NCBI GenBank assembly: GCA_026418875.1
Contig: JAOAAM010000561.1
Location: forward strand, 1 to 13,245
Length of the DNA stretch: 13,245 nt
Direction of reading: 5' to 3'
From: Gemmataceae bacterium
GTDB taxonomy: Bacteria; Planctomycetota; Planctomycetia; Gemmatales; Gemmataceae
The position numbers were made by a program, and so were the translations under genes. Positions 57 through 12,018 of the stretch are shown here, piece by piece. How positions within the stretch are numbered: position 1 is the first letter of the stretch; the number at the start of each line of letters is the position of its first letter. The notes beneath the pieces are model-generated. The model made no database searches. It had not been told where the DNA came from and saw nothing but the letters and a program-made list of their open reading frames with translations.

Positions 57-617
57 TCAGGCGTCCTTCGGCAGGAGCAGGGAAGCGATGCGGACATAGA
101 CGTGCTCGATGGGCGCGTCGGCCCGGATCAGATGAACGAGCTGTCGATGCTGATAATAGCGGACCAAATCGTCGGCGGTCTGATGGAAGGCGACGAGGCG
201 TTGTCGCACTGTGTCTTCCGAATCGTCCGCGCGCTGCCGGGAAAGCAAGCGGCGGATGACCAGGGCATCGTCGATGTCGAAGACGACAACGGCATGCAAA
301 GGCAAACCCAATTCGACGAGAAGGGCGTCCAAGGCCCGGGCTTGGGCGACATTCCGCGGGTAGCCGTCGAGGACAAAGTCGCGAGGGGCATCGGGTCGGC
401 GCAAGCGCTCGGCGACGAGGTCGTTGACGAGGTCGTCGGGGACGAGTCGGCCGGAGTCCATGAATGGTTTGGCTTTCAACCCGACTTCGGTGCCTTCTCG
501 AACCGCCTCGCGCAAGATGTCGCCGGTGCCGATGCAGATCAAGCCGAGCCGTTCACGCAACAATCGGGCTTGCGTGCCTTTACCACTGCCCGGGGGTCCG
601 ATGAAGACGACACGCAT
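57..617 (-). CDS. adk: Adenylate kinase, short form
   Basis: This cytosolic enzyme catalyses ATP + AMP = 2 ADP. The 186-residue protein begins MRVVFIGPPGSGKGTQA, with the P-loop at residues 7-15. It has the AMP-site TGDILR at 31-36 and GYPRN at 85-89. The segment RQRADDSEDTVRQRL (about 128-141) corresponds to the short lid of AMK proteins. The roughly 30-residue LID insertion with its zinc-binding cysteines, found in long forms, is absent. The ATG at 617 is right because the P-loop begins almost at once; no strong Shine-Dalgarno precedes it. It sits 105 nt after secY and 5 nt before map, as in many bacteria, and is probably cotranscribed. Confidence 0.96.
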   Translation of the reverse strand: MRVVFIGPPGSGKGTQARLLRERLGLICIGTGDILREAVREGTEVGLKAKPFMDSGRLVPDDLVNDLVAERLRRPDAPRDFVLDGYPRNVAQARALDALLVELGLPLHAVVVFDIDDALVIRRLLSRQRADDSEDTVRQRLVAFHQTADDLVRYYQHRQLVHLIRADAPIEHVYVRIASLLLPKDA

Positions 618-673
618 AAACAGGCCGCCCGTATGCCCTGCGGAGTGTCATTTTGGCCCGGGAGCGTGAAACC

Positions 674-688
674 GGGCGGCTCCCGCCC
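674..688 (-). other. Small GC hairpin between secY and adk
   Basis: GGGCGG (674-679) and CCGCCC (683-688) form a perfect 6-bp stem around a 3-nt loop. Overlapping GGGAGC/GCTCCC segments offer an alternative pairing. It lies in the 105-nt secY-adk gap, about 56 nt before the adk start. No T-run follows on the minus strand, so an intrinsic terminator is unlikely. It may be an mRNA stability or processing element, or only a product of high GC. Confidence 0.35.
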
Positions 689-722
689 AGGCCGTTACTA
701 CCTGTTACAGCATTCCCTTCGG

Positions 723-2099
723 TCAATCGTCTGTCAACCCCGGGTAGTTGCGCATCACCAAGTGGCTGTTGATCTTCTGCACCAGGTCCAGGGCCACACT
801 CACGACGATCAGCAGTCCCGTCCCGCCGTAGAATCCGGCGATCAGCGGGTCGATGTTCATTTCGGAGGAGATGATGTTGGGGATGATGGCGATAACGGCC
901 AGGAAGGCTGCGCCGATGTAGGTAATCCGCATCATCACTTTTTCGAGGTAGTCTGCCGTGCTCTTGCCGGGACGGTAACCCGGAATGAAGCTGCCGTGAT
1001 CCTTCAAGTTGTTGGCCATTTCCTTCGGGTTGAAGATGATCGCCGTCCAGAAATAGCAGAAGAAATAGATCATGGCGACGTAGATGACCAGGTAGAGCCA
1101 ACCTTCCCGTTGGAACGCGGCGGCAAGGCCTTGAGCCCAGGTGTAGTGGTTCGCCAGCGAGGTCAGGATCATCCTTGGGATCATCAACAAACTACCTGCG
1201 AAGATCACGGGCATGACGTTGGCCGTGTTGACTTTCAACGGCAAGTAATTTCGGGTGCCGCCATAGACCCGTCGGCCGCGGACGTGCTTAGCCGATTGCA
1301 TCGGGATGCGGCGTTGCGCCTTGGTCATGGCGATAACGCCGACCACGACCGCGATGAACATGAGGATGAGGACGAGCAGTTTTTCAAAGCCGATGTCGCT
1401 CGCGCTGGTGCCGCCCCCGAGGACGAAGAGCGATTCCTTGAGTTTGCCATCGCTGTCGAGCAAGAGCATCCGCGTGGCGGCGGGGATGCGGCCGACGATG
1501 CCCGCCATGATGATGAGGCTGATGCCGTTTCCGATCCCGTATTCGTCGATCTGTTCACCGAGCCACATCAAGAAGATGGTGCCGGCGGTCATCGTGATCA
1601 CGGCCGTGATCGAGTAGAACCAGAGATTGAACCCTTCGTCGAAGCCGGGAGTCGCCAAATTCCAGCCGTCGCGCTCCACCAGCGTCTTGACGACCCAACC
1701 TGCTTGGAACAGGCATATCGGGACGGTGGCGTAACGGGTGTACTCGTTGATTTTCTTCCGTCCGCTCTCGCCTTCCTTTTGCAGTTTTTCCAAGGGGGGA
1801 TAAAAGCTCGCGAGCAGTTGGAAGATGATCGACGCGGAGATGTAGGGCATGATGCCCAAGGCAATGATACTGGACTGGGACAGGTTGCCGCCGGAGAACA
1901 TGGCAACGAAGCCGAGCACCTGCCCGAAGCCGGTCCCTTGGGCAGACTCCATCTTCCGCGCCAGTTCTTCCTGATTGATGAACGGCACGGGGATGTAGTA
2001 ACCGATCCGATAGACCGACAAGAGGATCAAAGTGATCACGATCTTGCGGGTCAGTTCGGGGATTTTGAAGATAGCGAGGAAACGCTGCATGTGCGCCAT
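723..2099 (-). CDS. secY: Protein translocase subunit SecY
   Basis: SecY is the ten-helix inner-membrane channel of the Sec translocon, working with SecE, SecG, SecA and ribosomes. The 458-residue product has the expected hydrophobic segments. The N-terminal IFKIPELTRKI precedes TM1. SASIIFQLL and EGESGRKKINEYTRY lie near residues 90-120, GIGNGISLIIMAGI in the middle, and the C5 loop has KHVRGRRVYGG followed by LPLKVNTANVMPVIFA. The ATG at 2099 gives MAHMQRF. The fourth codon, ATG at 2090, is a realistic alternative: GGAAG stands 9 nt before it but abuts the first ATG, and MQRFLAIFKIPEL matches family starts better. The gene follows rplO by 78 nt, the standard spc order. The length is slightly above the usual 430-450. 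Confidence 0.98.
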   Translation of the reverse strand: MAHMQRFLAIFKIPELTRKIVITLILLSVYRIGYYIPVPFINQEELARKMESAQGTGFGQVLGFVAMFSGGNLSQSSIIALGIMPYISASIIFQLLASFYPPLEKLQKEGESGRKKINEYTRYATVPICLFQAGWVVKTLVERDGWNLATPGFDEGFNLWFYSITAVITMTAGTIFLMWLGEQIDEYGIGNGISLIIMAGIVGRIPAATRMLLLDSDGKLKESLFVLGGGTSASDIGFEKLLVLILMFIAVVVGVIAMTKAQRRIPMQSAKHVRGRRVYGGTRNYLPLKVNTANVMPVIFAGSLLMIPRMILTSLANHYTWAQGLAAAFQREGWLYLVIYVAMIYFFCYFWTAIIFNPKEMANNLKDHGSFIPGYRPGKSTADYLEKVMMRITYIGAAFLAVIAIIPNIISSEMNIDPLIAGFYGGTGLLIVVSVALDLVQKINSHLVMRNYPGLTDD

Positions 2100-2177
2100 C
2101 CTTCCGGCCGTGTTCGGCGGCTCACCGGCCGAGGCGATCTTGTCGAAGCTCCCTGGAAGCCGGCGGCCGGGGTCAGG

Positions 2178-2681
2178 TCAGGTTGCTGCCCGGCGGGGCT
2201 TCATTTTGTTGCGGACGGGCTTTTTCGGCCCGGGGATAATTTGCACCGTGCCGCCACGGGCTTGGATTTTCTCGGCGGCCGACTTGGAAACGTGATGCGC
2301 TGCCACTGTCAGCTGGCGTTGCAAGTCGCCGTGGCCGAGAATGCGAACCCCATCGGCAACGCCTTTGGCCAACCCCTTGGCCTTCAGGCTGGCAGGATCG
2401 ACGGTGTCGCCGTCCGCAAAGTGATCGTTCAAATCGCCGACGTTCACGACGTGATAGTGCCGCCGCCAAGAATTCTGGCTGAAGCCCCGCTTGGGCAGCC
2501 GTCGGAAGAGGGGCGTTTGACCGCCTTCGAAGAGCGGGCCGAACAGCTTGGCACCGGCACTGGAGTACTGCCCTTTGTGGCCGCGGCTGGCGGTTTTGCC
2601 ATGCCCACTGCCGATGCCCCGGCCAACTCGCTTTTTCGGTTTGCGTTTGTGGACGCCTTGATGGACTTGACTGAGGTCCAT
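2178..2681 (-). CDS. rplO: 50S ribosomal protein L15
   Basis: L15 (uL15) is a late-assembling large-subunit protein that contacts 23S rRNA. The 167-residue product begins MDLSQVHQGVHKRKPKKRVG and continues with the glycine- and basic-rich GRGIGSGHGKTASRGHKG typical of the family N-terminus. LFRRLPKRGFSQ lies at about 57-68. The C-terminal half carries the globular domain ending near ARGGTVQIIPG, followed by a basic tail. Its ATG shares one base with the rpsE stop (TAATG, 2679-2683), implying translational coupling. In most spc operons rpmD (L30) lies between these genes, but there is no room for it here. Confidence 0.97.
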   Translation of the reverse strand: MDLSQVHQGVHKRKPKKRVGRGIGSGHGKTASRGHKGQYSSAGAKLFGPLFEGGQTPLFRRLPKRGFSQNSWRRHYHVVNVGDLNDHFADGDTVDPASLKAKGLAKGVADGVRILGHGDLQRQLTVAAHHVSKSAAEKIQARGGTVQIIPGPKKPVRNKMKPRRAAT

Positions 2682-3190
2682 TACAGTTTCACTCCGCGCA
2701 GGGCCTCGACCTCCTGCTTAGTTCGCAGTTGGAGCAGCCCGTTGATGGTGGCCTTTACGAGGTTAATTGGGTTGGTCGAGCCGTGGGTTTTGCTCAGGAT
2801 GTTACGGATGCCGCAGGCTTGCAGCACTTCCCGGACGCCGGGGCCGGCCTTCACACCCGTGCCCGGACCGGCAGGCACCAAGATCACCCGGCTGGCACCG
2901 AATCGCCCCACGACGCGATGGGGGATGGTCTCGCCCCGGAGCGAGATTTTCTTCATGCGGCGAAGCGATTGCTCGCCATCCTTGAGGGCTTTCTCGACTG
3001 CGGGGGGAACTTCGTTGGCCTTGCCGTACCCCCACGCCACTTTGCCTTGCTCATCGCCGACGACGACCAAGGCGTTGAAGCTGAAGCGGCGACCGCCCTT
3101 CACCACCGCGGCACAGCGGCGGATCTTGACGACGAAATCCTTCAACTCCGATCGGGGCGAGTCGGCAGCATCTCGACGTTCACGAGCCAT
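2681..3190 (-). CDS. rpsE: 30S ribosomal protein S5
   Basis: S5 (uS5) sits near the mRNA entry channel and decoding centre and affects translational accuracy. The 169-residue product has the N-terminal double-strand-RNA-binding-like domain at about 15-80, with LKDFVVKIRRCAAVVKGGRR followed by FSFNALVVVGD and GYGKANEVPPA. The C-terminal domain includes VILVPAGPGTGVKAGPGVRE and GIRNILSKTHGSTNPINLVKA. The sequence is typical, with a short hydrophilic N-terminal extension. It starts 15 nt after the rplR stop and its stop overlaps the rplO start. The Shine-Dalgarno is weak (GTGAG 8 nt upstream). Confidence 0.98.
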   Translation of the reverse strand: MARERRDAADSPRSELKDFVVKIRRCAAVVKGGRRFSFNALVVVGDEQGKVAWGYGKANEVPPAVEKALKDGEQSLRRMKKISLRGETIPHRVVGRFGASRVILVPAGPGTGVKAGPGVREVLQACGIRNILSKTHGSTNPINLVKATINGLLQLRTKQEVEALRGVKL

Positions 3191-3205
3191 CGCGAATTCT
3201 CACGT

Positions 3206-3676
3206 TCACTTGGGTTTGGAGGCTTTGGGTTTCTTGTCGGTCTTGGCTTTTGCTTCCGGCTTGGCCGCCTCAGGCGGGGCCTCAGTTTTCGGCGCGGGTT
3301 GCTTGATGTTCTTCGGGTTGCAGCAGATCAGTCCGGCCTCGGTGGCGGCGACGGCGAGTGCCTGGACTCGCCCGTGGAAGCGGTACGGTCCGCGATCAAA
3401 TGCGGCTTGGGTGATGCCTTTGGCCTTGGCGGCTTCGGCGATTTTGCGGCCGACTAACTTGGCGGCTTCCACGTTTCCGCCGTAGCTCCCGTTCTTGCCC
3501 ACTGTGCTGGCGGCGGCGAGGGTGCGGCCGGTCTCGTCGTCGATCAACTGGGCGTAAATGTGCTTGGAGGAGCGGAAGACGCTCAGGCGGGGCCGCTCCG
3601 CGGTGCCGCGAATCTTTTTCCGAACGCGATGTTTGCGACGTTCACGCCGCACCAAGATCAATTTTTGCTGACTCAT
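3206..3676 (-). CDS. rplR: 50S ribosomal protein L18 with extended C-terminal tail
   Basis: L18 (uL18) binds 5S rRNA with L5 and docks it on the large subunit. The core, residues 1 to about 118, is ordinary: a basic N-terminus ([13 protein letters not shown]), [20 protein letters not shown], and [22 protein letters not shown]. Bacterial L18 normally ends near this last motif at about 120 residues. This protein continues for about 38 residues rich in Lys, Pro, Ala and Glu, ending KPKASKPK, so it totals 156 and should be disordered. The ATG at 3676 has only a weak ribosome site. Neighbours are rplF upstream, with a hairpin in the gap, and rpsE 15 nt downstream. Confidence 0.97.
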
Positions 3677-3695
3677 GGCCCGTATCCATCAACGA

Positions 3696-3720
3696 GGGTT
3701 GGCTGGAGACCAGCCCACCC
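3696..3720 (-). other. Hairpin in the rplF-rplR gap
   Basis: GGCTGG (3701-3706) pairs perfectly with CCAGCC (3710-3715) around a 3-nt loop. GGGT (3696-3699) pairs with ACCC (3717-3720) outside one T/C mismatch, making a compact stem of about 10 pairs. It lies 19 nt upstream of the rplR start. No T-run follows on the minus strand, so it is not a classical terminator. It may affect rplR translation or mRNA cleavage; its function is inferred only from position. Confidence 0.45.
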
Positions 3721-3742
3721 AGGATGAGCAATTATGTTCCGA

Positions 3743-4297
3743 TCAACCGCCACTGGCGAACGACTTGCCCTCTTTGCGACGCACCACTTCGTTCTCGTAG
3801 CGGACACCTTTCCCCTTGTAAGGTTCTGGCTTGCGGGCGGCCCGAAGCTCGGCAGCGAATTGCCCGACCTTCTGCTTGTCGGCCCCCCGGACGACGATCG
3901 TCGTCGGGTCCGGCAGGTCGGCGGTCACACCGTCGGGCGGCGTCAACACGATGTCGTTGGCGAAGCCCACCTTCAGAACAATGGCCTTGCCTTGCTTGGT
4001 GGCCTGATACCCGACACCTTCGATCTTCAGCCGCTTCTCGTACCCCTTGGTCACGCCCTCGATCATGTTTTTGATGATGTTGCGGGTCGTGCCGTGCAGG
4101 GACCGACTCAGCCGCTCGTCGTTGGGCCGCTCCACCTTGATCGACTTCGTGGCCTCATCGTGCGTGACCTTCATCAAAGGGTGGCAGTTCCATTCAAGCT
4201 TGGCACCCTTTGGCCCCTCGACGGTAATCTTGGCCCCCTCGACCTTCACCTTCACACCAGCGGGGTATACCACCGGTTGCTTACCGATACGGGACAT
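3743..4297 (-). CDS. rplF: 50S ribosomal protein L6
   Basis: L6 (uL6) lies at the base of the L7/L12 stalk near the factor-binding site. The 184-residue product begins MSRIGKQPVVYPAGVKVKVE and contains two tandem copies of the L6 fold. The second copy has RLKIEGVGYQATKQGKAIVLKVGF at about 90-113. The C-terminal signature PEPYKGKGVRYENEVVRRKEGK is present in full. The ATG at 4297 has GAGGT 7 nt upstream. It lies 69 nt downstream of rpsH and 66 nt upstream of rplR. Length is close to the family norm of about 178. Confidence 0.98.
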   Translation of the reverse strand: MSRIGKQPVVYPAGVKVKVEGAKITVEGPKGAKLEWNCHPLMKVTHDEATKSIKVERPNDERLSRSLHGTTRNIIKNMIEGVTKGYEKRLKIEGVGYQATKQGKAIVLKVGFANDIVLTPPDGVTADLPDPTTIVVRGADKQKVGQFAAELRAARKPEPYKGKGVRYENEVVRRKEGKSFASGG

Positions 4298-4366
4298 GAT
4301 GCCGACCTCTTATCTCCACACTCCCGGCCACGAACCGCAGGATGGATCCGCGTCCGAACTTTGTTA

Positions 4367-4813
4367 TCACCACACGTTGGCGATCACCTCGCCGCCCAAG
4401 TTCAGTTGGCGAGCGCGGCGGTCGCTCATGACTCCCTGGTTGGTGCTGATGATGGCGATCCCCATCCCGTCCAGAACTCGCTTCAATTCCGCACGACGTT
4501 TGTAAACCCGCAGCCCCGGCTTGCTCACTCGCTCGATTTGACGAATGACCCTCTCGCCCTCGGGGCCGTACTTCAAGTAAATCCGCAGCACGGCCTTCGG
4601 CTGGCTCAAATCGTCGGAAGGCGTGAAGACTTTCTGCCCCTCAGCATCGGTGGTGTAATGACCAACCTGATAGTCGAGGATGAACCCTTCATCGCGCAGC
4701 ACTTGAGCGATGCCGATCTTCAGCCGCGTGGCAGGCATTTCGACAGCGGGACGCTCGATGGCGTTGGCGTTGCGGATTCGGGTCAGCATGTCGGCGATCG
4801 GATCAGTCATCAT
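4367..4813 (-). CDS. rpsH: 30S ribosomal protein S8 with internal insertion
   Basis: S8 (uS8) binds the central domain of 16S rRNA and in E. coli represses the spc operon by binding its mRNA. The start [17 protein letters not shown] and the C-terminal [21 protein letters not shown] and GGEVIANVW are standard. At 148 residues it exceeds the usual 130-133. The excess maps to about residues 52-73, [20 protein letters not shown], a hydrophilic loop between two strands of the N-terminal domain. Adjacent ATG codons at 4813 and 4810 are equally plausible starts; the ribosome site is weak. Gaps are wide on both sides: 129 nt from rpsN and 69 nt to rplF. Confidence 0.97.
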
Positions 4814-4942
4814 GGCGTCAGTCGCTCACTTTGCAATTCAATTCCCACTCAGGCTCGTCGGTGTGTTCGGTTGTTACGTCGGCTCGCTACCTCGGATTCA
4901 AGAGCACTCCGCCGGTGTTTCGGCCAAGTCGCTCCGAGGGCG

Positions 4943-5179
4943 TCACCACGAGGCTTTGCGAACCCCCGGGATGAGGCCATCGCTTGCCATGTTGCGGAAG
5001 CAGATGCGGCAAATGCCGAACTTGCGGTACACTGCCCGCGGCCGACCGCACAGGCGGCAGCGGAGCCGGATGCGGATCTTCTCGCGCGGCGGCATCTTGA
5101 CCTTTTCCGGGTCTTTCAGATGCGCCTCGAGCTTGGCCATCTGCTTGCGAAACTTCGCCTCTTTCGAGTTCGTGGACAT
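4943..5179 (-). CDS. rpsN: 30S ribosomal protein S14, zinc-binding type
   Basis: S14 (uS14) assembles late into the 30S head. The 78-residue protein contains [20 protein letters not shown], a CxxC...CxxC zinc site with cysteines at 41, 44, 57 and 60, and ends [10 protein letters not shown]. This is the C+ (type Z-like) form, as opposed to the cysteine-less 101-residue form. Classical type Z proteins have about 61 residues; here roughly 17 extra residues, largely charged, precede the conserved basic stretch. The ATG at 5179 has GAGAG 6 nt upstream. It lies between rplE and rpsH, its normal place. Confidence 0.97.
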
Positions 5180-5240
5180 AACTGTCTCTCTTGGCCGACC
5201 GAGTCAATGCCCGGTGGGTGCTTATCGCCTCACGCTTGGT

Positions 5241-5780
5241 TCAATCGCGGAAGGGCATGCCGAATGCCCGGAGCAATTCGCGCGCTTCGTCGTCGCTATC
5301 GGTGCTGGTGACAATCGTGATGTCCATTCCCTGGGTGAACGAGACTTTGTCGGCGTCGACCTCGGGGAAGATCAATTGCTCGCTGACACCCATCGAGTAG
5401 TTTCCATGACCATCAAACGACTTCGGATTGATGCCACGGAAGTCGCGGATTCGAGGCAGGGCAACGTTGATGAGCCGGTCGAGGAACTCATACATCCGTT
5501 TGCCCCGAAGCGTGACTCGGCAGCCGATCTCGTTTCCCTTTCGCAGCTTGAACGAGCTGATCGCCTGGCGAGCACGGGTGACGACGGCTTTCTGACCAGC
5601 AATCATGGTCAATTGTTCGACCGCTTGTTCGATCCGGTTCTTGTCCTGAAGGGCCTTCCCCACCCCCATGTTCAGGACGATCTTCTTGAGCCGGGGCAGG
5701 CTCATGGGGTTGGTCCGTCCGAGCTTTTTCTTCAACTCGGGGACGATGTTTTTCTGATAGTGTTCGAGCAAGCGAGCCAT
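5241..5780 (-). CDS. rplE: 50S ribosomal protein L5
   Basis: L5 (uL5) binds 5S rRNA and contacts P-site tRNA and the small-subunit head. The 179-residue product has the typical opening [19 protein letters not shown]. It continues with [16 protein letters not shown], the [25 protein letters not shown] region at about 69-93, and [14 protein letters not shown] with MDITIVTS near the C-terminus. Length equals the family norm. The ATG at 5780 has AGGTA about 9 nt upstream. Neighbours are rplX 51 nt upstream and rpsN 61 nt downstream. Confidence 0.98.
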
Positions 5781-5831
5781 GTCCGTTTACCTGCAATTCC
5801 GTCGGGGGCGGGCGTTGTCGATGTCTCGGCC

Positions 5832-6200
5832 TCAGGAGGAGGAACGAGCGTACTTGGGATCAGGCTTGCTGAGCAAACCCAAGCCGCTGCCACATTTTTT
5901 GCAGTACCGCTCTTTCGCTCCCTCGGCGGTGTACCGTTTGCCGATGCGGCGGCCTCGGCGGCACGTGGGGCAGTAAAGCAACACGTTGGAGGCGTCGATG
6001 GGCATCTCTTTCGACAGTCGGCCGCCCTGAGGATTCCGCCGGGACGGCTTCAGGTGCCGATACACCTTGTTGATGCCCTCGACGATGACCTTGTTCTTGT
6101 CCGGCAGGACGCGCAGCACTTTGCCCAACGTCGGCGATTGGGCATCGCCGGCGTCGTCACCGGTGAGAACTTCCACGATGTCATTCTTGCGCACGTGCAT
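5832..6200 (-). CDS. rplX: 50S ribosomal protein L24 with zinc-ribbon cysteines and KOW-loop insertion
   Basis: L24 (uL24) is an early assembly initiator at the tunnel exit. The KOW region starts MHVRKNDIVEVLTGDDAG. It then has about seven extra residues (DAQSPTL, roughly 19-25) before GKVLRVLPDKNKVIVEGIN, where most L24 proteins read G.(D/N)(K/R)GK.GKV. The C-terminal domain keeps two cysteine pairs, CPTC (77 and 80) and CKKC (100 and 103), consistent with a zinc ribbon found in many L24 proteins. The tail SKPDPKYARSSS is extra. Total length is 122 residues against about 105. The ATG at 6200 is preceded by AAGGGA at 9 nt. Confidence 0.97.
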   Translation of the reverse strand: MHVRKNDIVEVLTGDDAGDAQSPTLGKVLRVLPDKNKVIVEGINKVYRHLKPSRRNPQGGRLSKEMPIDASNVLLYCPTCRRGRRIGKRYTAEGAKERYCKKCGSGLGLLSKPDPKYARSSS

Positions 6201-6239
6201 GGGGATCGTTCCCTTGGGCGATTGTTCGCGGGTGGCGGC

Positions 6240-6608
6240 TCACACGACTTCGGAGGCCAAGTTGGTGATTTTCACGAAACCCTTTTCTCGCAACTCTCGG
6301 GCGACCGCGCCAAAAATGCGGGTGCCCCGGGGATTCTTCTCGGCGTCGATCAGGACACACGCATTTCGGTCGAAGCGAACATAGCTGCCATCCTTCCGGC
6401 GAGTCGCCCGTTTGGTGCGGACGACGACGCCCTTGACCACGTCGCCGGGTTTGACATCGCCACCGGGGATGGCTTTCTTAACACTGGCGACGATGATGTC
6501 TCCCAGCCCGGCATACCGACGTTTGCTGCCGCCCAGCACCTTGATGCACATGCATTCTTTGGCACCGGTGTTGTCGGCCACGTCGAGGTAGGTGTACATC
6601 TGAATCAT
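6240..6608 (-). CDS. rplN: 50S ribosomal protein L14
   Basis: L14 (uL14) forms part of intersubunit bridges and is the target of the silencing factor RsfS. The 122-residue sequence is close to canonical: [71 protein letters not shown], and [20 protein letters not shown]. Start ATG 6608 gives the expected MIQ and has AGGTG 7 nt upstream, which rules out the second ATG at 6599. It lies 41 nt after rpsQ, so the S10-type and spc-type gene groups run together without an obvious terminator. Confidence 0.99.
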
Positions 6609-6649
6609 GTCAATTCACCTGTCCGATGGTCGCCTCGAAATTCTTTGCG

Positions 6650-6958
6650 TCAAGCAGGGTTGGTCGATTCCGCGCGCGGGGCGGCTTTCACCACCCGCAC
6701 CAATCGCCAATTCTTGGTCTTCGACAGCGGTCGAGTTTCCATGATTTCCACGGTGTCGCCGGTGCGGGTTTCGTTGTTCTCGTCGTGGACATAGCAGACG
6801 GTTCGCCGCTTGATGTATTTGCCGTATCGTGGGTGTTTCACGAGACGAGAAACTTCGACGCGGCGCGTCTTGTTCATTTTGTCGCTGGTGACTTCGCCGA
6901 TGAGGGTACGGCGGGGTTTGCGTTTTGGGGTCGAGGGGGCGGGGGTGGGATCAGCCAC
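6650..6958 (-). CDS. rpsQ: 30S ribosomal protein S17
   Basis: S17 (uS17) is a primary 16S rRNA binder with an OB fold. The core [36 protein letters not shown] is followed by [31 protein letters not shown], a typical S17 motif set. At 102 residues it has a Pro/Lys N-terminal extension of about 15 residues and a short C-terminal tail. The start is GTG at 6958, overlapping the last 8 nt of rpmC. A strong AAGGAGG lies 6 nt upstream, so the start is well fixed. Confidence 0.97.
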
Positions 6959-7193
6959 GGCGAGCCTCCTTCGCCTCGGCAGGCGTCTGGCGTTGCCGCT
7001 CCCGTTCGCGTTGGATCGTCAGGATGCGAGCGATGTCACGTTTCGCTTTGCGGATTTCGCTGGGGGTTTCCAGACGATCCGTTGCGGATTGGAAGCGCAG
7101 GTGGAACAAATTCTTCTCCAGTTCCTTCAAGCTGAGGGCCAATTGTTCGTCGCTGGCCCCGCGATACTCGTTAAGTTTCTCTTTCCGTTTCAT
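6951..7193 (-). CDS. rpmC: 50S ribosomal protein L29
   Basis: L29 (uL29) is a small helical-hairpin protein beside the tunnel exit, near the SRP and trigger-factor docking site. From ATG 7193 the 80-residue protein reads [20 protein letters not shown], then [39 protein letters not shown], a standard L29 pattern, followed by a charged tail. An in-frame ATG at 7205 would add MRWT, but GAGGTGG lies between the two ATGs and serves the second, whose product also matches the family start. The stop overlaps the rpsQ start by 8 nt, suggesting coupling. It follows rplP by 42 nt. Confidence 0.96.
6965..6971 (-). promoter_or_regulatory. Ribosome binding site for rpsQ
   Basis: AAGGAGG on the minus strand, 6 nt before the GTG at 6958. 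It is the best Shine-Dalgarno in the window, and it lies inside the 3' end of rpmC. It supports the GTG start and the 8-nt overlap. Confidence 0.85.
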
Positions 7194-7196
7194 GGT

Positions 7197-7203
7197 CCAC
7201 CTC
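7197..7203 (-). promoter_or_regulatory. Ribosome binding site deciding the rpmC start
   Basis: GAGGTGG on the minus strand; GAGGT ends 5 nt before the ATG at 7193. It overlaps codons of the longer frame that begins at ATG 7205, so it favours the shorter start. Confidence 0.75.
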
Positions 7204-7235
7204 ATCCGGTGCAGACGCCCCGGCTCACACCCGGG

Positions 7236-7655
7236 TCAAACGTTGGGCCGTCGCGTCACGAACCGGCATTTGAACGGCATTTTGTAAGCAACACGGGCAA
7301 GGCATTCACGAGCGGCGGACTCGGGGATACCGGCCACTTCGTAAAGGATCGTGCCGGGCTTGACAACAGCCGCCCAGTATTCCGGCTCGCCTTTCCCCTT
7401 CCCCATCCGGGTTTCGAGGGGGATCGCGGTCACGGACTTGTGTGGGAAGACGCGGATGTACAATCGACCCTCGCCTCGAATGAAGTTCGAGGCGGTGATG
7501 CGACCCGCTTCGATCGCCTCGGCACTCAGCCAGCCGCCCTCGAGGGCTTGCAGGCCGAATTCGCCCATGGCGACGGCGTTGCCCCGCTGCGCGTTACCTC
7601 TTACCTTGCCGCGCTGGCTTTTTCGATACTTGACGCGCTTGGGCATCATGGCCAT
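7236..7655 (-). CDS. rplP: 50S ribosomal protein L16
   Basis: L16 (uL16) organises the A-site tRNA region next to the peptidyl transferase centre. The 139-residue product has PKRVKYRKSQRGK at the N-terminus, GEFGLQALEGGWLSAEAIEAGR, then RVFPHKSVTAIPLETRMGKGKG and PEYWAAVVKPGTILYEVAGIPE, all canonical. The arginine hydroxylated in E. coli L16 (in RMGKGKG) is present. Three in-frame ATGs (7655, 7649, 7646) cluster here. GGAGG lies 9 nt before the first and 15-18 nt before the others, so 7655 (MAMMPKRV) is chosen. The frame also stays open further upstream, but that part does not resemble L16. The first 62 nt overlap the 3' end of rpsC in another frame. Confidence 0.97.
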   Translation of the reverse strand: MAMMPKRVKYRKSQRGKVRGNAQRGNAVAMGEFGLQALEGGWLSAEAIEAGRITASNFIRGEGRLYIRVFPHKSVTAIPLETRMGKGKGEPEYWAAVVKPGTILYEVAGIPESAARECLARVAYKMPFKCRFVTRRPNV

Positions 7656-8295
7656 CGCTTGTTTCCTCCACCGCGAGATAATCGCCGTTGTTGATCCAAA
7701 CTTTGATTCCGATATGCCCCTGCGCTGTCTTCGCCTCGTGGAACCCGTACTCGACTCGGGCACGCAGCGTCGACAACGGGATGCTTCCCTCCATCGCTTT
7801 TTCGCACCGGGCCATTTCCGCTCCACCCAGCCGGCCCGACAATTGCAGCCGAATGCCCTTGGCTCCGTTCTCCATCGCTTTTTGCATCGCGTTCTTCATG
7901 GTCCGACGGAAGCTGACCCGCTTCTCGATCTGCTCCGCGATGTCTTGTGCGACCAATTGGGCATCCACTTCCGGCTTGGGCACTTCGATGGTCTTCACCT
8001 CGACATGGCGATGGATCAACTGCTCAAGCTGCTTCGTTAGTTTCTCGATCTTCTCGCCTTTCTTGCCGATGATTTGCCCGACCCGCCCCGAGTGGATGTA
8101 AACGACGACTTTCTCCCGGGTGCGTTCGATCACAATCTTCGAAATACCCGTCGGGTGTTTCTTTTTGATGAATTGGCGGATGCGCGCATCTTCGACGAGC
8201 AACTCGCCGTACTCTTTCTTGCCGGCATACCACTGGCTCTGCCAGTCGATCATGATGCCGGTGCGGAAGCCAGTCGGCCGGACTTTCTGACCCAT
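7594..8295 (-). CDS. rpsC: 30S ribosomal protein S3
   Basis: S3 (uS3) lines the mRNA entry tunnel and has helicase-related roles. From ATG 8295 the product has 233 residues. It opens MGQKVRPTGFRTGI. The KH domain has HSGRVGQIIGKKGEKIEKL, with its GKKG loop near 77-80. The C-terminal domain has RRTMKNAMQKAMENGAKGIRLQLSGRLGGAEMAR, and later GHIGIKVWINNGDYL. A GTG at 8298 is also in frame, but GGGAG stands 7 nt before the ATG and the family begins MGQK. After the usual core the protein continues with about 26 hydrophilic residues ending SKKPARQGKR. That tail is read from DNA that also encodes the start of rplP, a 62-nt overlap confirmed codon by codon. Confidence 0.98.
   Translation of the reverse strand: MGQKVRPTGFRTGIMIDWQSQWYAGKKEYGELLVEDARIRQFIKKKHPTGISKIVIERTREKVVVYIHSGRVGQIIGKKGEKIEKLTKQLEQLIHRHVEVKTIEVPKPEVDAQLVAQDIAEQIEKRVSFRRTMKNAMQKAMENGAKGIRLQLSGRLGGAEMARCEKAMEGSIPLSTLRARVEYGFHEAKTAQGHIGIKVWINNGDYLAVEETSDGHDAQARQVSKKPARQGKR
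7665..7669 (-). promoter_or_regulatory. Ribosome binding site deciding the rplP start
   Basis: GGAGG on the minus strand, 9 nt before ATG 7655. It lies within rpsC coding sequence (the GTG GAG GAA codons of S3), so translation of rpsC passes through it. This is consistent with coupling by terminating or re-initiating ribosomes. Confidence 0.8.
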
Positions 8296-8302
8296 CACTC
8301 AT

Positions 8303-8307: not shown

Positions 8308-8407
8308 GGCGAGTCGCGGTTCGATTCGGGGTCGTTGGCCAACCAACCTCGCGTCCCGAATCAATTTCCATCGACCCCCTTCACCATAGCTCTGCACGAC
8401 CCCTCGA

Positions 8408-8493
8408 CCACCGACGGCCCAACGAGCGCCGAAGTCACAAGCGCCGGCGGGAGGGGTTGGCTCGCCGCCGGCGCTGCTCGGTCGTCTCGGTGG
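8408..8493 (-). other. Large GC-rich stem-loop in the rplV-rpsC gap
   Basis: GCGCCGGCGG (8441-8450) is perfectly complementary to CCGCCGGCGC (8465-8474); with A8440-T8475 this makes an 11-bp stem and a 14-nt loop. CCACCGA (8408-8414) can pair with TCGGTGG (8487-8493), just outside the rplV stop at 8497, giving a possible longer structure. No T-run follows on the minus strand. The gap to the rpsC start is about 200 nt, unusually wide for genes normally almost adjacent. Candidate roles are a partial attenuator, a 3'-end stabiliser after mRNA processing, or a protein-binding site. Confidence 0.6.
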
Positions 8494-8496
8494 TGG

Positions 8497-8853
8497 TTAT
8501 TCTTGCTCCTCGCTGTTCTGTTCCTCAGCGACGCTGACGATGATGTGCGAAAGTCGTCGTTTGATCGGGTAGGCGGTGCCGCGTGCGCGGGGCATGATCC
8601 GCTTATACATCGGGGCACCGTCCACCCGAGCTTCGGTGACGATCAACTCTTCGACGTTCCGCACACCGCGGTCCTCAGCGTTGCCGACCGCACTCTTCAA
8701 CACGGCTTCGAGGAGTTTGGCGCCACGATTCGGGACGAATCGCAACAACTCCAGAGCCTCTTCCGCATAACGTCCGCGAATCATGTCCGCGAAGGGGCGG
8801 ATCTTTCGCGCCGAGACGTCCGCAAAACGATGCTTGGCCGTGTACTGTTCCAT
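8497..8853 (-). CDS. rplV: 50S ribosomal protein L22
   Basis: L22 (uL22) has a long beta-hairpin lining the nascent-peptide tunnel, the site of macrolide-resistance mutations. The 118-residue product starts MEQYTAKHRFADVSARKIRPFADMIRG. It continues with EALELLRFVPNRGAKLLEAVLKSAVGNAED, and the hairpin segment is DGAPMYKRIMPRARGTAYPIKRRLSHIIVSV. Sequence and length are typical, with an acidic C-terminal end. ATG 8853 is preceded by AAGGT at 7 nt. Upstream, 42 nt separate it from the initiator tRNA; downstream a strong hairpin occupies the gap before rpsC. Confidence 0.98.
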   Translation of the reverse strand: MEQYTAKHRFADVSARKIRPFADMIRGRYAEEALELLRFVPNRGAKLLEAVLKSAVGNAEDRGVRNVEELIVTEARVDGAPMYKRIMPRARGTAYPIKRRLSHIIVSVAEEQNSEEQE

Positions 8854-8895
8854 CGCTCTACCTTGCCCTGTCGGGTCAAGACCGTCGTCAGGAAG

Positions 8896-8967
8896 TTCCG
8901 GGGGCAGGATTTGAACCTGCGACCTCCAGGTTATGAGCCTGGCGAGCTACCCCTGCTCCACCCCGGG
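8896..8967 (-). tRNA. Initiator tRNA-fMet (anticodon CAU)
   Basis: A complete cloverleaf of 72 nt reads on the minus strand. The acceptor CCCGGGG pairs with CCCCGGA, leaving the C1-A72 mismatch diagnostic of bacterial initiators (formylation signal). The D stem GAGC/GCTC has the A11-U24 pair of initiators, with a short 7-nt D loop. The anticodon stem is CCAGG/CCTGG around CTCATAA, with anticodon CAU at 8935-8933. The variable loop is AGGTC, the T arm is GCAGG-TTCAAAT-CCTGC, and discriminator A73 is followed by CTT, so CCA is not encoded. The three G-C pairs next to the loop in most initiators are here A29-U41, G30-C40 and G31-C39. It lies 11 nt after the rpsS stop and 42 nt before rplV, on the operon strand, so it is probably excised from the polycistronic RNA. 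Confidence 0.98.
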
Positions 8968-8978
8968 ATCGTGTCGCG

Positions 8979-9257
8979 TCACTTGCCACCCGCAGCCTTC
9001 TTGCCACCCGAGTGGCCCTTGAACGTTCGTGTCGGGGCGAATTCGCCGAGCTTGTGGCCCACCATGTCCTCAGTCACGAACAGCTTGATGAAATGCCGAC
9101 CGTTATGGATTTCGAAGGTGTGGCCGACGAATTCCGGAACGATCGTGCAATCACGCGACCAAGTCCGCAGCGGCCGGCCGCCGCTGGCAGGTTGCTTTTC
9201 GACTTTGGCCAGCAACCGCAGATCGACGTAAGGCCCTTTTTTCAGCGATCGACCCAT
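8979..9257 (-). CDS. rpsS: 30S ribosomal protein S19
   Basis: S19 (uS19) forms a complex with S13 in the 30S head and contacts A- and P-site tRNA. The 92-residue product begins [12 protein letters not shown]. It carries KTWSR-like sequence ([25 protein letters not shown]), then [33 protein letters not shown], the standard family signature. Length is normal. The ATG at 9257 has only a weak upstream purine tract. It follows rplB by 128 nt, and the initiator tRNA begins 11 nt after its stop. Confidence 0.98.
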
Positions 9258-9285
9258 GTTGGCTCGTCCATTCGCTCTTGCGTCG

Positions 9286-9308
9286 CCGCCGTCGAAATTT
9301 CGCGGCGG
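9286..9308 (-). other. Hairpin in the rplB-rpsS gap
   Basis: CCGCCG (9286-9291) pairs with CGGCGG (9303-9308) around an 11-nt loop. The loop contains the palindrome CGAAATTTCG, so the helix can extend inward. It lies 28 nt upstream of the rpsS start within a 128-nt gap. No T-run follows on the minus strand, so it is not a typical terminator; it may influence rpsS translation or mRNA processing. Confidence 0.4.
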
Positions 9309-9385
9309 TAACCAATACTTTTATGACCGAATCCAATCAACGGCTACAGTCATTATGCCCATGAAACCAAACCACGTTCCGCCGA

Positions 9386-10249
9386 TCACCAGCCGCCCTT
9401 GGCGTAATGCGGGCCTGGATGACGACGGCGGATGATCGCGGAGTTCGAAGGCTTCCGTTTCTTGCGAGTCTTCCCGCCTTTCGACAGCACACCCGTCGGA
9501 CTGCAAGGGTGCCGACCGCCTGAGGTCCGCCCCTCGCCACCGCCCATCGGATGGTTGACAGGGTTCTGGCTCGTGCCCCGGTTGTGCGGCTTGCGACCTT
9601 TCCAGCGCTTCCGACCTGCCTTGCCCAAGCTGATGTTCATGTGGTCGGCATTGCCGATAGTGCCGATGGTCGCCCGGCAATTGACATGGACTCGCCGAAC
9701 CTCGCCCGACGGCAAGGTGATTTGCGCCCAATCTGATTCCCGGGCTGTCAGCACGGCACTCATGCCGGCAGCTCGACACAACTGACCGCCACGGCCTGGG
9801 TGCAACTCCACGTTGTGGATCGTCATGCCCAACGGGACTTTTCGCAGCGGCAGGCAGTTACCCACCCTCGGTTCCGCGGTCTCCCCGCTGTAGACTAAGT
9901 CGCCCTTTTTCAGACCTTCCGGGGCAAGGATGTACGCCTTTTCGCCATCCTCGTATTGGATCAAGGCGATTCGTGCCGAACGGCAGGGGTCGTACTCGAT
10001 CGATTGAACCGTGGCGGCAATGCCGTCTTTCTTGCGCTTGAAGTCGATCAAGCGGTACATTTGCTTATGGCCGCCGCCCCGGAATCGCGCGGTCACGATC
10101 CCTTGGTTGTTACGGCCGCCTTTTTTCTTCCGCGGGACCAATAGTGATTTCTCCGGTCGGTTCACCTTCGGATAGGTGCACTCCGAGAAATCACTGACGG
10201 AACCACCACGGCGGCCCGGACTGGTCGGCTTGTATTGACGAATCCCCAT
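9386..10249 (-). CDS. rplB: 50S ribosomal protein L2
   Basis: L2 (uL2) is a primary 23S rRNA binder needed for subunit joining and peptidyl transfer. The 287-residue product has [50 protein letters not shown], the OB/SH3 core, and [37 protein letters not shown]. His233 in VNHPMGG aligns with E. coli His229 near the peptidyl transferase centre. The neighbours read Asn232 and Met235, where most bacteria have Asp and His (VDHPHGG). The C-terminus has an extra GPHYAKGGW after RRR. ATG 10249 has TGAGG 5 nt upstream. It follows rplW by 60 nt. Confidence 0.98.
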
Positions 10250-10309
10250 GGATGCCTCATCCCCTTGGCGTGTTGGCCGTCGCCTCGCGGCGATCGGTGG
10301 ACGCCTGGC

Positions 10310-10729
10310 TTAGAAGAATTCGATCTTGTCCTCCGGGTGCAACCGAACGATGGCCTTCTTCCAATGCGAGAGTCGGCCGATTCGGAAGCGGAACCGTCGA
10401 TGTTTGCCGTAGTAGTTCTGCGTGCAAACTTTCTCAACCCGCACGCCGAACAGCTCCTCGACGGCATTCTTGATGTCGTGCTTGCTGGCGTGGCGAGCGA
10501 CCTCGAAGGTGTAGCTGCTGCCGACGGGTTTCAGACCCTTCTCCGATCGCCGTGCCCCGAGCCGCTCTGACCGAGTGCTGTGGTGCGTGCTTTTCTCGGT
10601 GACGAGCGGCCGCAGGATCACCTGGTGCGGTCGGAGTTCCGGCCCGGCGGGTGTCAGCACCTCGGTGCGTTGACGTTCCCTGGCCGCGAGTTTTCGCAGG
10701 TATCGTTTGGGTCGAGGTCGAGCCTGCAT
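10310..10729 (-). CDS. rplW: 50S ribosomal protein L23 with N-terminal extension and insertion
   Basis: L23 (uL23) borders the tunnel exit and is the docking site of trigger factor and SRP. The conserved parts are ILRPLVTEKST at about 38-48, SSYTFEVARHASKHDIKNAVEELFGVRVEKV at 71-101, and YYGKHRRFRFRIGRLSHWKKAIVRL. Typical L23 has 95-100 residues; this has 139. The excess is a basic N-terminal extension of about 34 residues and a hydrophilic insertion of about 20 residues (roughly 49-70) in the first loop. ATG 10729 is supported by GGGAG 8 nt upstream, so the extension is probably translated. Neighbours are rplD (51 nt) and rplB (60 nt). Confidence 0.96.
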   Translation of the reverse strand: MQARPRPKRYLRKLAARERQRTEVLTPAGPELRPHQVILRPLVTEKSTHHSTRSERLGARRSEKGLKPVGSSYTFEVARHASKHDIKNAVEELFGVRVEKVCTQNYYGKHRRFRFRIGRLSHWKKAIVRLHPEDKIEFF

Positions 10730-10737
10730 AGTTCCGT

Positions 10738-10742
10738 CTCCC
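10738..10742 (-). promoter_or_regulatory. Ribosome binding site supporting the extended rplW start
   Basis: GGGAG on the minus strand, 8 nt before ATG 10729. It supports translation of the unusual N-terminal extension of L23 rather than a start nearer the conserved core. Confidence 0.65.
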
Positions 10743-10780
10743 TTCGTCGCGCTATTCCACCATTTTCGGCGACGCGGATG

Positions 10781-11485
10781 TCAGCTCTTCGTGCGCAACT
10801 GCTCCAGAGCGGCTTTGGTCAAGATGAGTCGCTTCGGTCGCAGCACAACGTAAGCGTTGAATTCAGCGGCGGGCATCAACTCCAGGCCCGGGATGTTCCT
10901 CGCCGACTTGTAAGCGATTTCTTGGGCTTTCGGGTCGAGTCCGGCTGTGCCGATCAGGCAGCTCTTTCCGGTCAGGTTCAAGGCTTTGAGAATACCGGCG
11001 ACTTGCTTGGTTTTCGGTTCGGTGAGGTTCAAATCTTCGAGGATCACCGTCTCGTTGTCGGCGAAGCGGCTGAGGAGTGCCATGCGAGTGGCGGCCCGGA
11101 GAGCTTTTCGCGGCAGATGGTACTCGTAATCGCGGGGTTTTGGGCCTTTCGCGGTGCCGCCGCCACGGCGTTTGTTCGTTCGACGATTGCCCACACGGGC
11201 GTTGCCGGTTCCTTTTTGCCGGAATAACTTCCGGGTGCTCCCAGCGACTTCGCCTCGGCGCAAGGTGGAGTGGGTGCCGGCCCGCTGGTTCGCCAAGTAC
11301 ATCAGCACCGCTTCGTGGAGAAGTTGCTTGCTGATTTTGCCGCCAAACTCGGCCGGGTCGATACTGACTTTGCCAGTAAGAACCCCGGCTGAATTGTAAA
11401 CGGGCAACTCGATCGGTCCCGCCACGTCGCCCTCGACGGGTGGCTTCGATTCGGCAGTGTTCGTTGATTCGGTGGCCGCTGTCAT
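10781..11485 (-). CDS. rplD: 50S ribosomal protein L4
   Basis: L4 (uL4) reaches the tunnel constriction through a long loop; in E. coli it also represses its own operon by attenuating transcription in the leader RNA. The 234-residue product has an acidic Thr/Ala/Glu N-terminal extension of about 25 residues, then ELPVYNSAGVLTGKVSID. The tunnel loop region is RRGEVAGSTRKLFRQKGTGNARVG. The C-terminal Rossmann-like part includes RKALRAATRMALLSRF, KTKQVAGILKAL and the RNIPGLELMPAAEFNAYVVL segment. It directly follows rpsJ, with no rplC between; the 112-nt gap holds a perfect 12-bp inverted repeat ending 25 nt before this start. The ribosome site is weak. Confidence 0.97.
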   Translation of the reverse strand: MTAATESTNTAESKPPVEGDVAGPIELPVYNSAGVLTGKVSIDPAEFGGKISKQLLHEAVLMYLANQRAGTHSTLRRGEVAGSTRKLFRQKGTGNARVGNRRTNKRRGGGTAKGPKPRDYEYHLPRKALRAATRMALLSRFADNETVILEDLNLTEPKTKQVAGILKALNLTGKSCLIGTAGLDPKAQEIAYKSARNIPGLELMPAAEFNAYVVLRPKRLILTKAALEQLRTKS

Positions 11486-11510
11486 GGTCGCATCTCGTCA
11501 CTTGACGCGG

Positions 11511-11572
11511 GCGAGCCGGGAACTCAAGCTGGCAGGAGTGACATCATCCAGCCGCTCGGATTCCCGGCTCGC
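11511..11572 (-). promoter_or_regulatory. Long inverted repeat upstream of rplD, in the usual place of rplC
   Basis: GCGAGCCGGGAA (11511-11522) is the exact reverse complement of TTCCCGGCTCGC (11561-11572). Inside the 38-nt spacer, GCTGG (11528-11532) pairs with CCAGC (11548-11552), so the RNA could form a long two-part stem-loop. It fills more than half of the 112-nt rpsJ-rplD gap and ends 25 nt before the rplD ATG. No T-run follows, so simple termination is unlikely. Autogenous control by L4, RNA processing, or a relic of rearrangement are possible roles; none is shown by the sequence. Confidence 0.6.
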
Positions 11573-11597
11573 GACGCACGCCTGGAGTGGTCCCCTT

Positions 11598-11933
11598 TCA
11601 GCCTCCCAAGCCCATCACACGGATCTTAATGTCCACACCGGGGGGGAGGGTCAAACCCTTGTTCAATGCTTCAATCGTTTTCGCCGTCGGTCGGAGAATG
11701 TCGATCAGACGCTTGTGAGTGCGAATCTCGAACTGCTCCCGCGACTTGCGATCAATGTGCGGGCTGCGCAAAACCGTGTAACGCTCGATCCGAGTGGGCA
11801 AGGGGATCGGACCATGCACTTCGGCCCCGGTCTGCTCGGCCGTGTTGATGATCTCCTTGGCCGTGCGCTCCAGGATCTCGTAATCGTACCCCTCCATGCG
11901 GATGCGAATCCGTTCGTTGCTCGGACCCGGCAC
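11598..11933 (-). CDS. rpsJ: 30S ribosomal protein S10
   Basis: S10 (uS10) is a 30S head protein and, as NusE, part of antitermination complexes. The core [42 protein letters not shown], then [29 protein letters not shown], is unmistakable. The frame is open up to a GTG at 12002, but the best start is GTG 11933, giving 111 residues beginning (M)[11 protein letters not shown]. It has GGGGAG 6 nt upstream and a length near the usual 103. The ATG in RIRMEGY would delete a conserved strand. It heads the ribosomal cluster after a 177-nt leader. The expected next gene, rplC, is missing; rplD follows after 112 nt. Confidence 0.97.
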
Positions 11934-11939
11934 GTTTGG

Positions 11940-11945
11940 CTCCCC
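11940..11945 (-). promoter_or_regulatory. Ribosome binding site deciding the rpsJ start
   Basis: GGGGAG on the minus strand, 6 nt before the GTG at 11933. It selects this GTG over the upstream in-frame GTG codons (for example 12002), which would add an unconserved stretch. Confidence 0.75.
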
Positions 11946-11989
11946 GCATTCACTGCGTGACTGAGGACATTCTCTCACCAGGAACTGTA

Positions 11990-12018
11990 TTGGTACGACC
12001 ACGATCCCACGGAGTCAA
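11990..12018 (-). promoter_or_regulatory. Weak sigma70-like promoter candidate for the ribosomal cluster
   Basis: On the minus strand TTGACT (12018-12013) resembles a -35 box. After 17 nt, TACCAA (11995-11990) is a poor -10 match. Transcription would begin near 11983, leaving a leader of about 50 nt before the rpsJ GTG. The -35 is good and the -10 weak, so this is only a candidate. The position, between the end of the upstream gene and rpsJ, is where an operon promoter is expected. Confidence 0.3.

Follow-up and report, generated by a model that had tools for sequence, protein, structure and literature searches.

Why should an initiator tRNA gene lie in the middle of the S10 ribosomal protein operon, whose gene order ranks among the best conserved of all bacteria, and is such a gene put to use there? 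The question is raised by the 13,245-nucleotide stretch analysed here as a whole (the window), which is contig 443 of an 816-contig metagenome bin that is 83% complete. The answer that we consider likely is that the gene took up its place between rpsS and rplV in an ancestor and encodes a functional, often the sole, initiator tRNA that is transcribed together with the S10 operon and excised from its mRNA. That ancestor was probably as old as the window's order or older. The relevant features, all on the minus strand, are as follows.

8896 to 8967, minus strand: predicted initiator tRNA gene, anticodon CAU, without encoded CCA (ARAGORN; Rfam RF00005; C1xA72, A11:U24 and A29:U41)
8968 to 8978, minus strand: 11-nt spacer from the rpsS stop to the tRNA 5′ end (reading frames and tRNA bounds)
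8854 to 8895, minus strand: 42-nt spacer from the tRNA 3′ end to the rplV ATG (reading frames and tRNA bounds; folding z 0.25)
8979 to 9257, minus strand: rpsS, ribosomal protein S19 (frame; PF00203, E 5.8e-34)
8497 to 8853, minus strand: rplV, ribosomal protein L22 (frame; PF00237, E 4.5e-31)
9386 to 12002, minus strand: upstream part of the S10 operon (frames; PF00338 and PF00573; same order in relatives by tblastn), made up of the next four
11598 to 12002, minus strand: rpsJ (frame)
10781 to 11485, minus strand: rplD (frame)
10310 to 10729, minus strand: presumably rplW (frame, named from its sequence)
9386 to 10249, minus strand: presumably rplB (frame, named from its sequence)
57 to 8298, minus strand: downstream part of the gene series, rpsC to adk (frames; adk by PF00406; rpsC to rplE aligned in relatives)

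Apart from adk, we take the downstream frames to be rpsC, rplP, rpmC, rpsQ, rplN, rplX, rplE, rpsN, rpsH, rplF, rplR, rpsE, rplO and secY.

A single tRNA is detected in the window by ARAGORN, a tRNA-Met(CAU) at 8895-8967 of the minus strand. The Rfam model RF00005 matches it over its full length at 8967-8896 of the same strand (65.5 bits, E 1.1e-12, gathering score 29). An earlier note on this DNA had described a complete tRNA on the operon strand, 11 nt past the rpsS stop and 42 nt ahead of rplV; ARAGORN, Rfam and the reading frames reproduce this exactly. Within the second spacer, AAGG at 8861-8864 is by eye a possible ribosome-binding site of rplV.

The tRNA folds into a full cloverleaf that presents the CAU anticodon expected of a bacterial initiator. 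Nucleotides C1 and A72, which form no Watson-Crick pair, are found in all 30 aligned copies that occupy the same slot (hereafter embedded), the window's included. All 30 also have A11:U24, a purine 11:pyrimidine 24 pair. The third classical mark, three G:C pairs at 29-31:39-41, is incomplete: the anticodon stem of the window's tRNA reads A29:U41, G30:C40, G31:C39. As A29:U41 occurs in 68 out of 68 aligned tRNAs from the fetched loci of the class (30 embedded, 38 free), the three-G:C feature is not a defining one for initiators of this group. Other natural initiators also do without the three pairs. By its C1xA72 and A11:U24 the window's tRNA is of initiator type, and we predict its use in initiation. 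As a side observation, U1 stands opposite A72, with which it could pair, in 10 of the 38 aligned free tRNAs; six of the ten come from the loci L055-L058 of one family (f3), several genomes of which contain two to five neighbouring tRNA copies.

The same arrangement is found well beyond the window. A second bin of its genus (G001) has the same gene order and an identical tRNA, and 57 of the 59 genomes in a first search of relatives had a match to the tRNA somewhere. We then surveyed 90 genomes of the window's order with a completeness of 80% or more, in 86 of which rpsS was found. In 32 of these 86, the gene directly downstream of rpsS, and on its strand, is an initiator tRNA; this holds for all seven genomes of family f2 and for 25 out of 79 of the window's own family, f1. 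None of the 14 genera with two or more measured genomes is mixed. For 37 of the 54 negatives the locus was fetched and both genes could be measured; 36 of these loci have no tRNA in the gap and in the last, G097, the gap is N-masked, while the remaining 17 were judged from coordinates alone. Across the 30 intron-free embedded loci, the tRNA is on the operon strand and begins 5-90 nt after the rpsS stop, the distance being 5-15 nt in 16 of them.

In a sample of 118 genomes of the class, with coordinates compared by eye, the slot is filled in 13 genomes from four of 14 families (6/26 of f1, 4/4 of f2, 2/2 of f5 and 1/1 of f7); the embedded genomes known from the latter two families are G046, G051 and G055 (f5) and G048 (f7). 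The remaining ten families account for 85 genomes; among the tRNA matches listed for 83 of these (G111 and G179 had no match), none is embedded, and the gap is free of tRNA in all 12 loci fetched. For other classes of the phylum the count is 0 of 27 measurable loci, from the 29 non-window loci among the best 30 (49 genomes searched), and a control across bacteria gives 0 of 70 measurable loci among the 80 named loci listed. The earlier note is supported in that the slot is an unusual one for an initiator tRNA. The comparison of the rpsS-rplV junction across planctomycetes that it proposed has a divided outcome: the gene is kept in many relatives, but in less than a third of the families sampled from the class and in none of the measured loci of other classes. 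The literature searched, made up of titles and abstract openings with few subscription journals, does not describe the placement. Altogether, the embedded placement is lineage-specific and conserved, not private to the window's metagenome bin, and the gene is, judged by sequence, a functional one.

How often is the embedded gene the only one of its kind? The window's bin yields 22 tRNA hits, two of them with a CAU anticodon; the second CAU tRNA, on contig 459, is by eye of the elongator type. With the tRNA as a DNA query, the bin returns one full match and a 34-nt partial match that belongs to a tRNA-Arg. The count of initiator genes called for by the earlier note therefore finds no second copy in this bin, where one may be missing because of the incompleteness and fragmentation of the assembly. 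In 26 of the 32 embedded genomes, most of which are likewise incomplete bins, a cut-off of E 1e-8 leaves the embedded gene as the single match. The other six (G004, G018, G019, G078, G079 and G080) have a second copy. Five of the weaker hits that the first search of relatives gave in embedded genomes were read and turned out to be a tRNA-Arg, a tRNA-Val with a tRNA-Ile, a tRNA-Pro and, in two cases, no tRNA.

The clearest case is G046, a single 7.6-Mb contig that is 94% complete by marker genes. All of its 47 tRNA hits were read. Four have a CAU anticodon, one of these being a weak 34-bit hit, and by eye the initiator marks are found solely in the embedded one. As a DNA query the tRNA has one match at E 1e-3 or better in this genome, which speaks against a second copy split by an intron. 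That G046 has a sole initiator-type tRNA is the strongest evidence that the embedded gene would have to be expressed.

The embedded tRNAs also appear to be maintained as folded molecules. In an alignment of 22 of them (11 distinct), the 220 cells of the 20 stem pairs tested are all standard, which none of 500 shuffles reaches. Five stem pairs are changed on both sides, a number reached by 5 of 500 shuffles; on a weaker covariation measure, the count of further pair types, 37 of 500 shuffles do as well, and relatedness among the sequences makes all tests of this sort look stronger. Compensation of this kind in the stems speaks for selection that acts on the RNA in its folded form. Mean identity is 95.5% over the tRNA (30 loci) versus 70.8% over nucleotides 6-45 of the trailer (loci with a long enough trailer), the latter value being inflated by gapped alignment. 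Elsewhere, a stretch of 36 nt in G040 (L317; contig 45, 6262-6297) is 92% identical to nucleotides 13-48 of the initiator tRNA and is not called as a tRNA by ARAGORN; it may be a tRNA fragment that marks a site of integration.

No intron interrupts the window's own tRNA. In four relatives the embedded tRNA is interrupted, by 677 nt in G031, 345 nt in G005, 356 nt in G028 and 645 nt in G093, and one free copy, in G036, has an insert of 281 nt (loci L059:5424-6172, L060:5799-6215, L061:5640-6067, L169 in the S19-L22 gap, and L062:1443-1797). By eye, the insertion site is in the anticodon loop, between U33 and C34. The introns have no Rfam match at gathering score; RF00028 (gathering score 50) matches all four of L059-L062 (three embedded, one free) below that threshold, with 36.7-46.2 bits and E values between 8.8e-9 and 6.3e-6. 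The G093 insert (L169) resembles group I introns by eye. Taken together, the inserts in tRNA-fMet resemble group I introns. Two of the five, in G031 and G093, contain a frame with PF11645, a PD-(D/E)XK endonuclease family. In the PDB the G031 frame matches 2OST (E 1e-62), labelled 'Putative endonuclease', which we take to be I-Ssp6803I; both introns would thus encode I-Ssp6803I-like homing endonucleases. By eye, the frame is shortened in G005 and G028, where mostly its C-terminal part remains. In G028, G031 and G093 there is no initiator match besides the interrupted embedded gene, and in G005 this gene was the sole one in the first search of relatives, where a weak hit corresponds to other tRNAs; the bins of these four genomes are 79-95% complete.

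The known counterpart is the tRNA-fMet intron of Synechocystis, within which, as PMC1995217 presents it, I-Ssp6803I is encoded. The anticodon-loop insert in the embedded tRNA of the four relatives, with PF11645 in two, is alike; the difference is that their interrupted tRNA sits inside the S10 operon, so that the intron lies in a ribosomal protein gene series as well. In G077 (L174), the spacer between the embedded tRNA and rplV measures 445 nt and holds an antisense frame (1875-2258, minus strand). This frame has CxxC and HH/CxxCH patterns, is HNH nuclease-like by eye and has no Pfam family.

How would a tRNA in this position be made? The earlier note saw no separate promoter or terminator, and our consensus scan of 8400-9400 likewise comes out empty for the operon strand. 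Sigma-70-like sites number zero on either strand, a weak negative since 0.2 would be expected by chance and planctomycete promoters may not fit the consensus. No terminator-like site is found on the operon strand of the same interval, which is also a weak negative for a consensus scan. Same strand, close spacing to the operon genes and lack of a terminator of its own are features that the window's tRNA has in common with metY of E. coli. No RNase III-cleavable hairpin was found beside the window's tRNA, where the folding covered the spacer on its 3′ side (z 0.25). A conserved fold between tRNA and rplV was entertained, as strong hairpins occur in several relatives, and was rejected as not specific: values of z below -2 were obtained for 9 of the 33 tRNA-bearing loci folded (a 34th was skipped as too long) and for 15 of 46 S19-L22 spacers that lack the tRNA. 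As for the 3′ end, RNase Z (TIGR02651) gives only matches below the cut-off in 6 of 6 genomes, against matches above it in 9 of 14 control genomes.

In our proposal the S10 mRNA is most likely the transcript that contains the tRNA. The 5′ end would be released by RNase P and the trailer removed by an endo- or exonuclease acting on the 3′ side, and CCA, because it is not encoded, would be added after trimming. Each tRNA set free would sever that mRNA at the rpsS-rplV junction, and the supply of initiator would track transcription of the S10 operon. The two resulting parts, rpsJ to rpsS and rplV onward, might then differ in stability, as the earlier note suggested. A more far-reaching version, in which the whole initiator supply comes from the S10 transcript at the price of one mRNA cut per tRNA, and some relatives additionally need group I self-splicing, is put forward tentatively: it may well be right, but we lean slightly the other way.

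Several other accounts of the locus deserve consideration. An artefact of assembly or binning that joined unrelated contigs might be suspected in a bin as fragmented as this one, but it is refuted by independent genomes, namely G001 from the same genus with its identical tRNA, many others, and one assembled as a single contig; its probability is negligible. The embedded copy could instead be a redundant or decaying duplicate, with a normal initiator tRNA gene elsewhere doing the work. The earlier note had named other initiator copies as the observation that would tell against a working gene here, and they do exist in the six genomes listed above, three of which were read and have a different acceptor stem; the incompleteness of the window's bin adds some room for this account. 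The single match in the 26 other embedded genomes and in G046, the compensatory stem changes and the C1xA72 kept in every aligned embedded copy all weigh against it, and make it very improbable. The tRNA might also be driven by a promoter of its own inside the rpsS coding region and be expressed independently, its location being incidental. Operons can hold internal promoters, several being known in metY-nusA-infB of E. coli according to PMC6511841, and the scan could overlook promoters that depart from the sigma-70 consensus. Still, it returned no site on either strand, and in about half of the intron-free loci the rpsS stop precedes the tRNA by so little that the promoter would have to lie within the rpsS coding sequence. 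We find this account improbable, although clearly less so than redundancy, and retain co-transcription with the S10 operon as the likely source of the tRNA.

When did the gene settle in this slot? In a FastTree tree of L2, S19, L22 and S3 (86 tips, G097 being coded 'no' despite its N-masked gap), the embedded gene is present in all seven f2 genomes and in one whole subclade of f1. On the simplest reading there, the order's ancestor would have had the embedded gene, and repeated losses would have followed. The acceptor stem carries a trace of the two kinds of copy: C2:G71 is found in 27 of 30 aligned embedded copies and G2:C71 in all 38 aligned free ones. The second copies of G004, G018 and G019 (L080, L081 and L082) are of the free kind, with a different acceptor stem. 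Replacement of one gene by the other would leave behind just such a pair of embedded and free-kind copies. The competing view is that the placement arose several times independently, or that an rpsS-tRNA-rplV segment spread by horizontal transfer. In its favour, the embedded f5 and f7 genomes are scattered among families without the embedded gene, Fitch parsimony requires at least 10 changes over the tree with absence as the root state, several deep nodes are weakly supported, f2 is not a single clade, and embedded tRNAs share up to 99% identity between f1 and f2. Against it, slot and strand are common to four families, every genus of the order is uniform in this respect, and near identity is expected of a tRNA under strong selection. 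Multiple origins or transfer thus seem unlikely to us, though of all the alternatives this is the one to be taken most seriously, and we keep to ancestral settlement followed by losses.

Co-transcription of tRNAs with genes of the translation machinery has precedents. In the tRNA-tufB operon of E. coli, tRNA genes stand ahead of an elongation factor gene and are transcribed together with it. The planctomycete case would be similar if its co-transcription holds; the tRNAs of tRNA-tufB are, however, elongators at the head of the operon, outside any ribosomal protein operon. The closest precedent is metY-nusA-infB of E. coli. As far as PMC6511841 and a title that it cites describe the system, RNase III releases the tRNA there and starts decay of the downstream mRNA. 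The same source portrays metY as promoter-proximal, as a minor copy (about 25% of the initiator tRNA of K-12) and as dispensable for growth. Both systems place an initiator tRNA with translation-machinery genes, with co-transcription demonstrated for E. coli and presumed for the S10 case. By contrast, metY comes first in an operon that encodes factors, whereas the planctomycete gene stands midway in the S10 operon, often with no second copy found. An initiator tRNA in a translation operon is hence known; more notable here is that it lies inside the S10 operon, is frequently the sole copy and serves as a site for introns.

The level of initiator tRNA sets initiation capacity, which, if the proposal is true, would be tied to ribosome synthesis in one step. 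A lineage whose sole initiator tRNA comes from the S10 operon would be a natural experiment on whether the supply of initiator has to keep step with ribosome synthesis, and on how a ribosomal protein mRNA survives a cut in mid-transcript. Related genera that kept, lost, doubled or intron-loaded the gene are ready comparisons.

The gene series of the window has two further peculiarities. According to the frame list, there is no rpmD (L30) frame between what we take to be rpsE and rplO, the frames of which abut (2675-2690). In addition, rplC (L3) is missing between rpsJ and rplD (11486-11597), and L3 was not found in the window's incomplete (83%) bin. L3 and rpsS lie on separate contigs in G037, G039, G030 and G020 and far apart in G062, and L3 is located about 2.2 kb upstream of rpsS in G046. 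The distance between rpsJ and rplD is 116-332 nt in all 27 f1 loci with both genes measurable. It is also short in a named Gemmataceae locus (L085), the nearest by S19 (74%) among the 80 loci listed. These two likenesses make Gemmataceae/Gemmatales the likely, though not proven, affiliation of the window, the short distance being shared by two loci of other Planctomycetota (L095 and L161) and three from outside the phylum (L101, L138 and L143).
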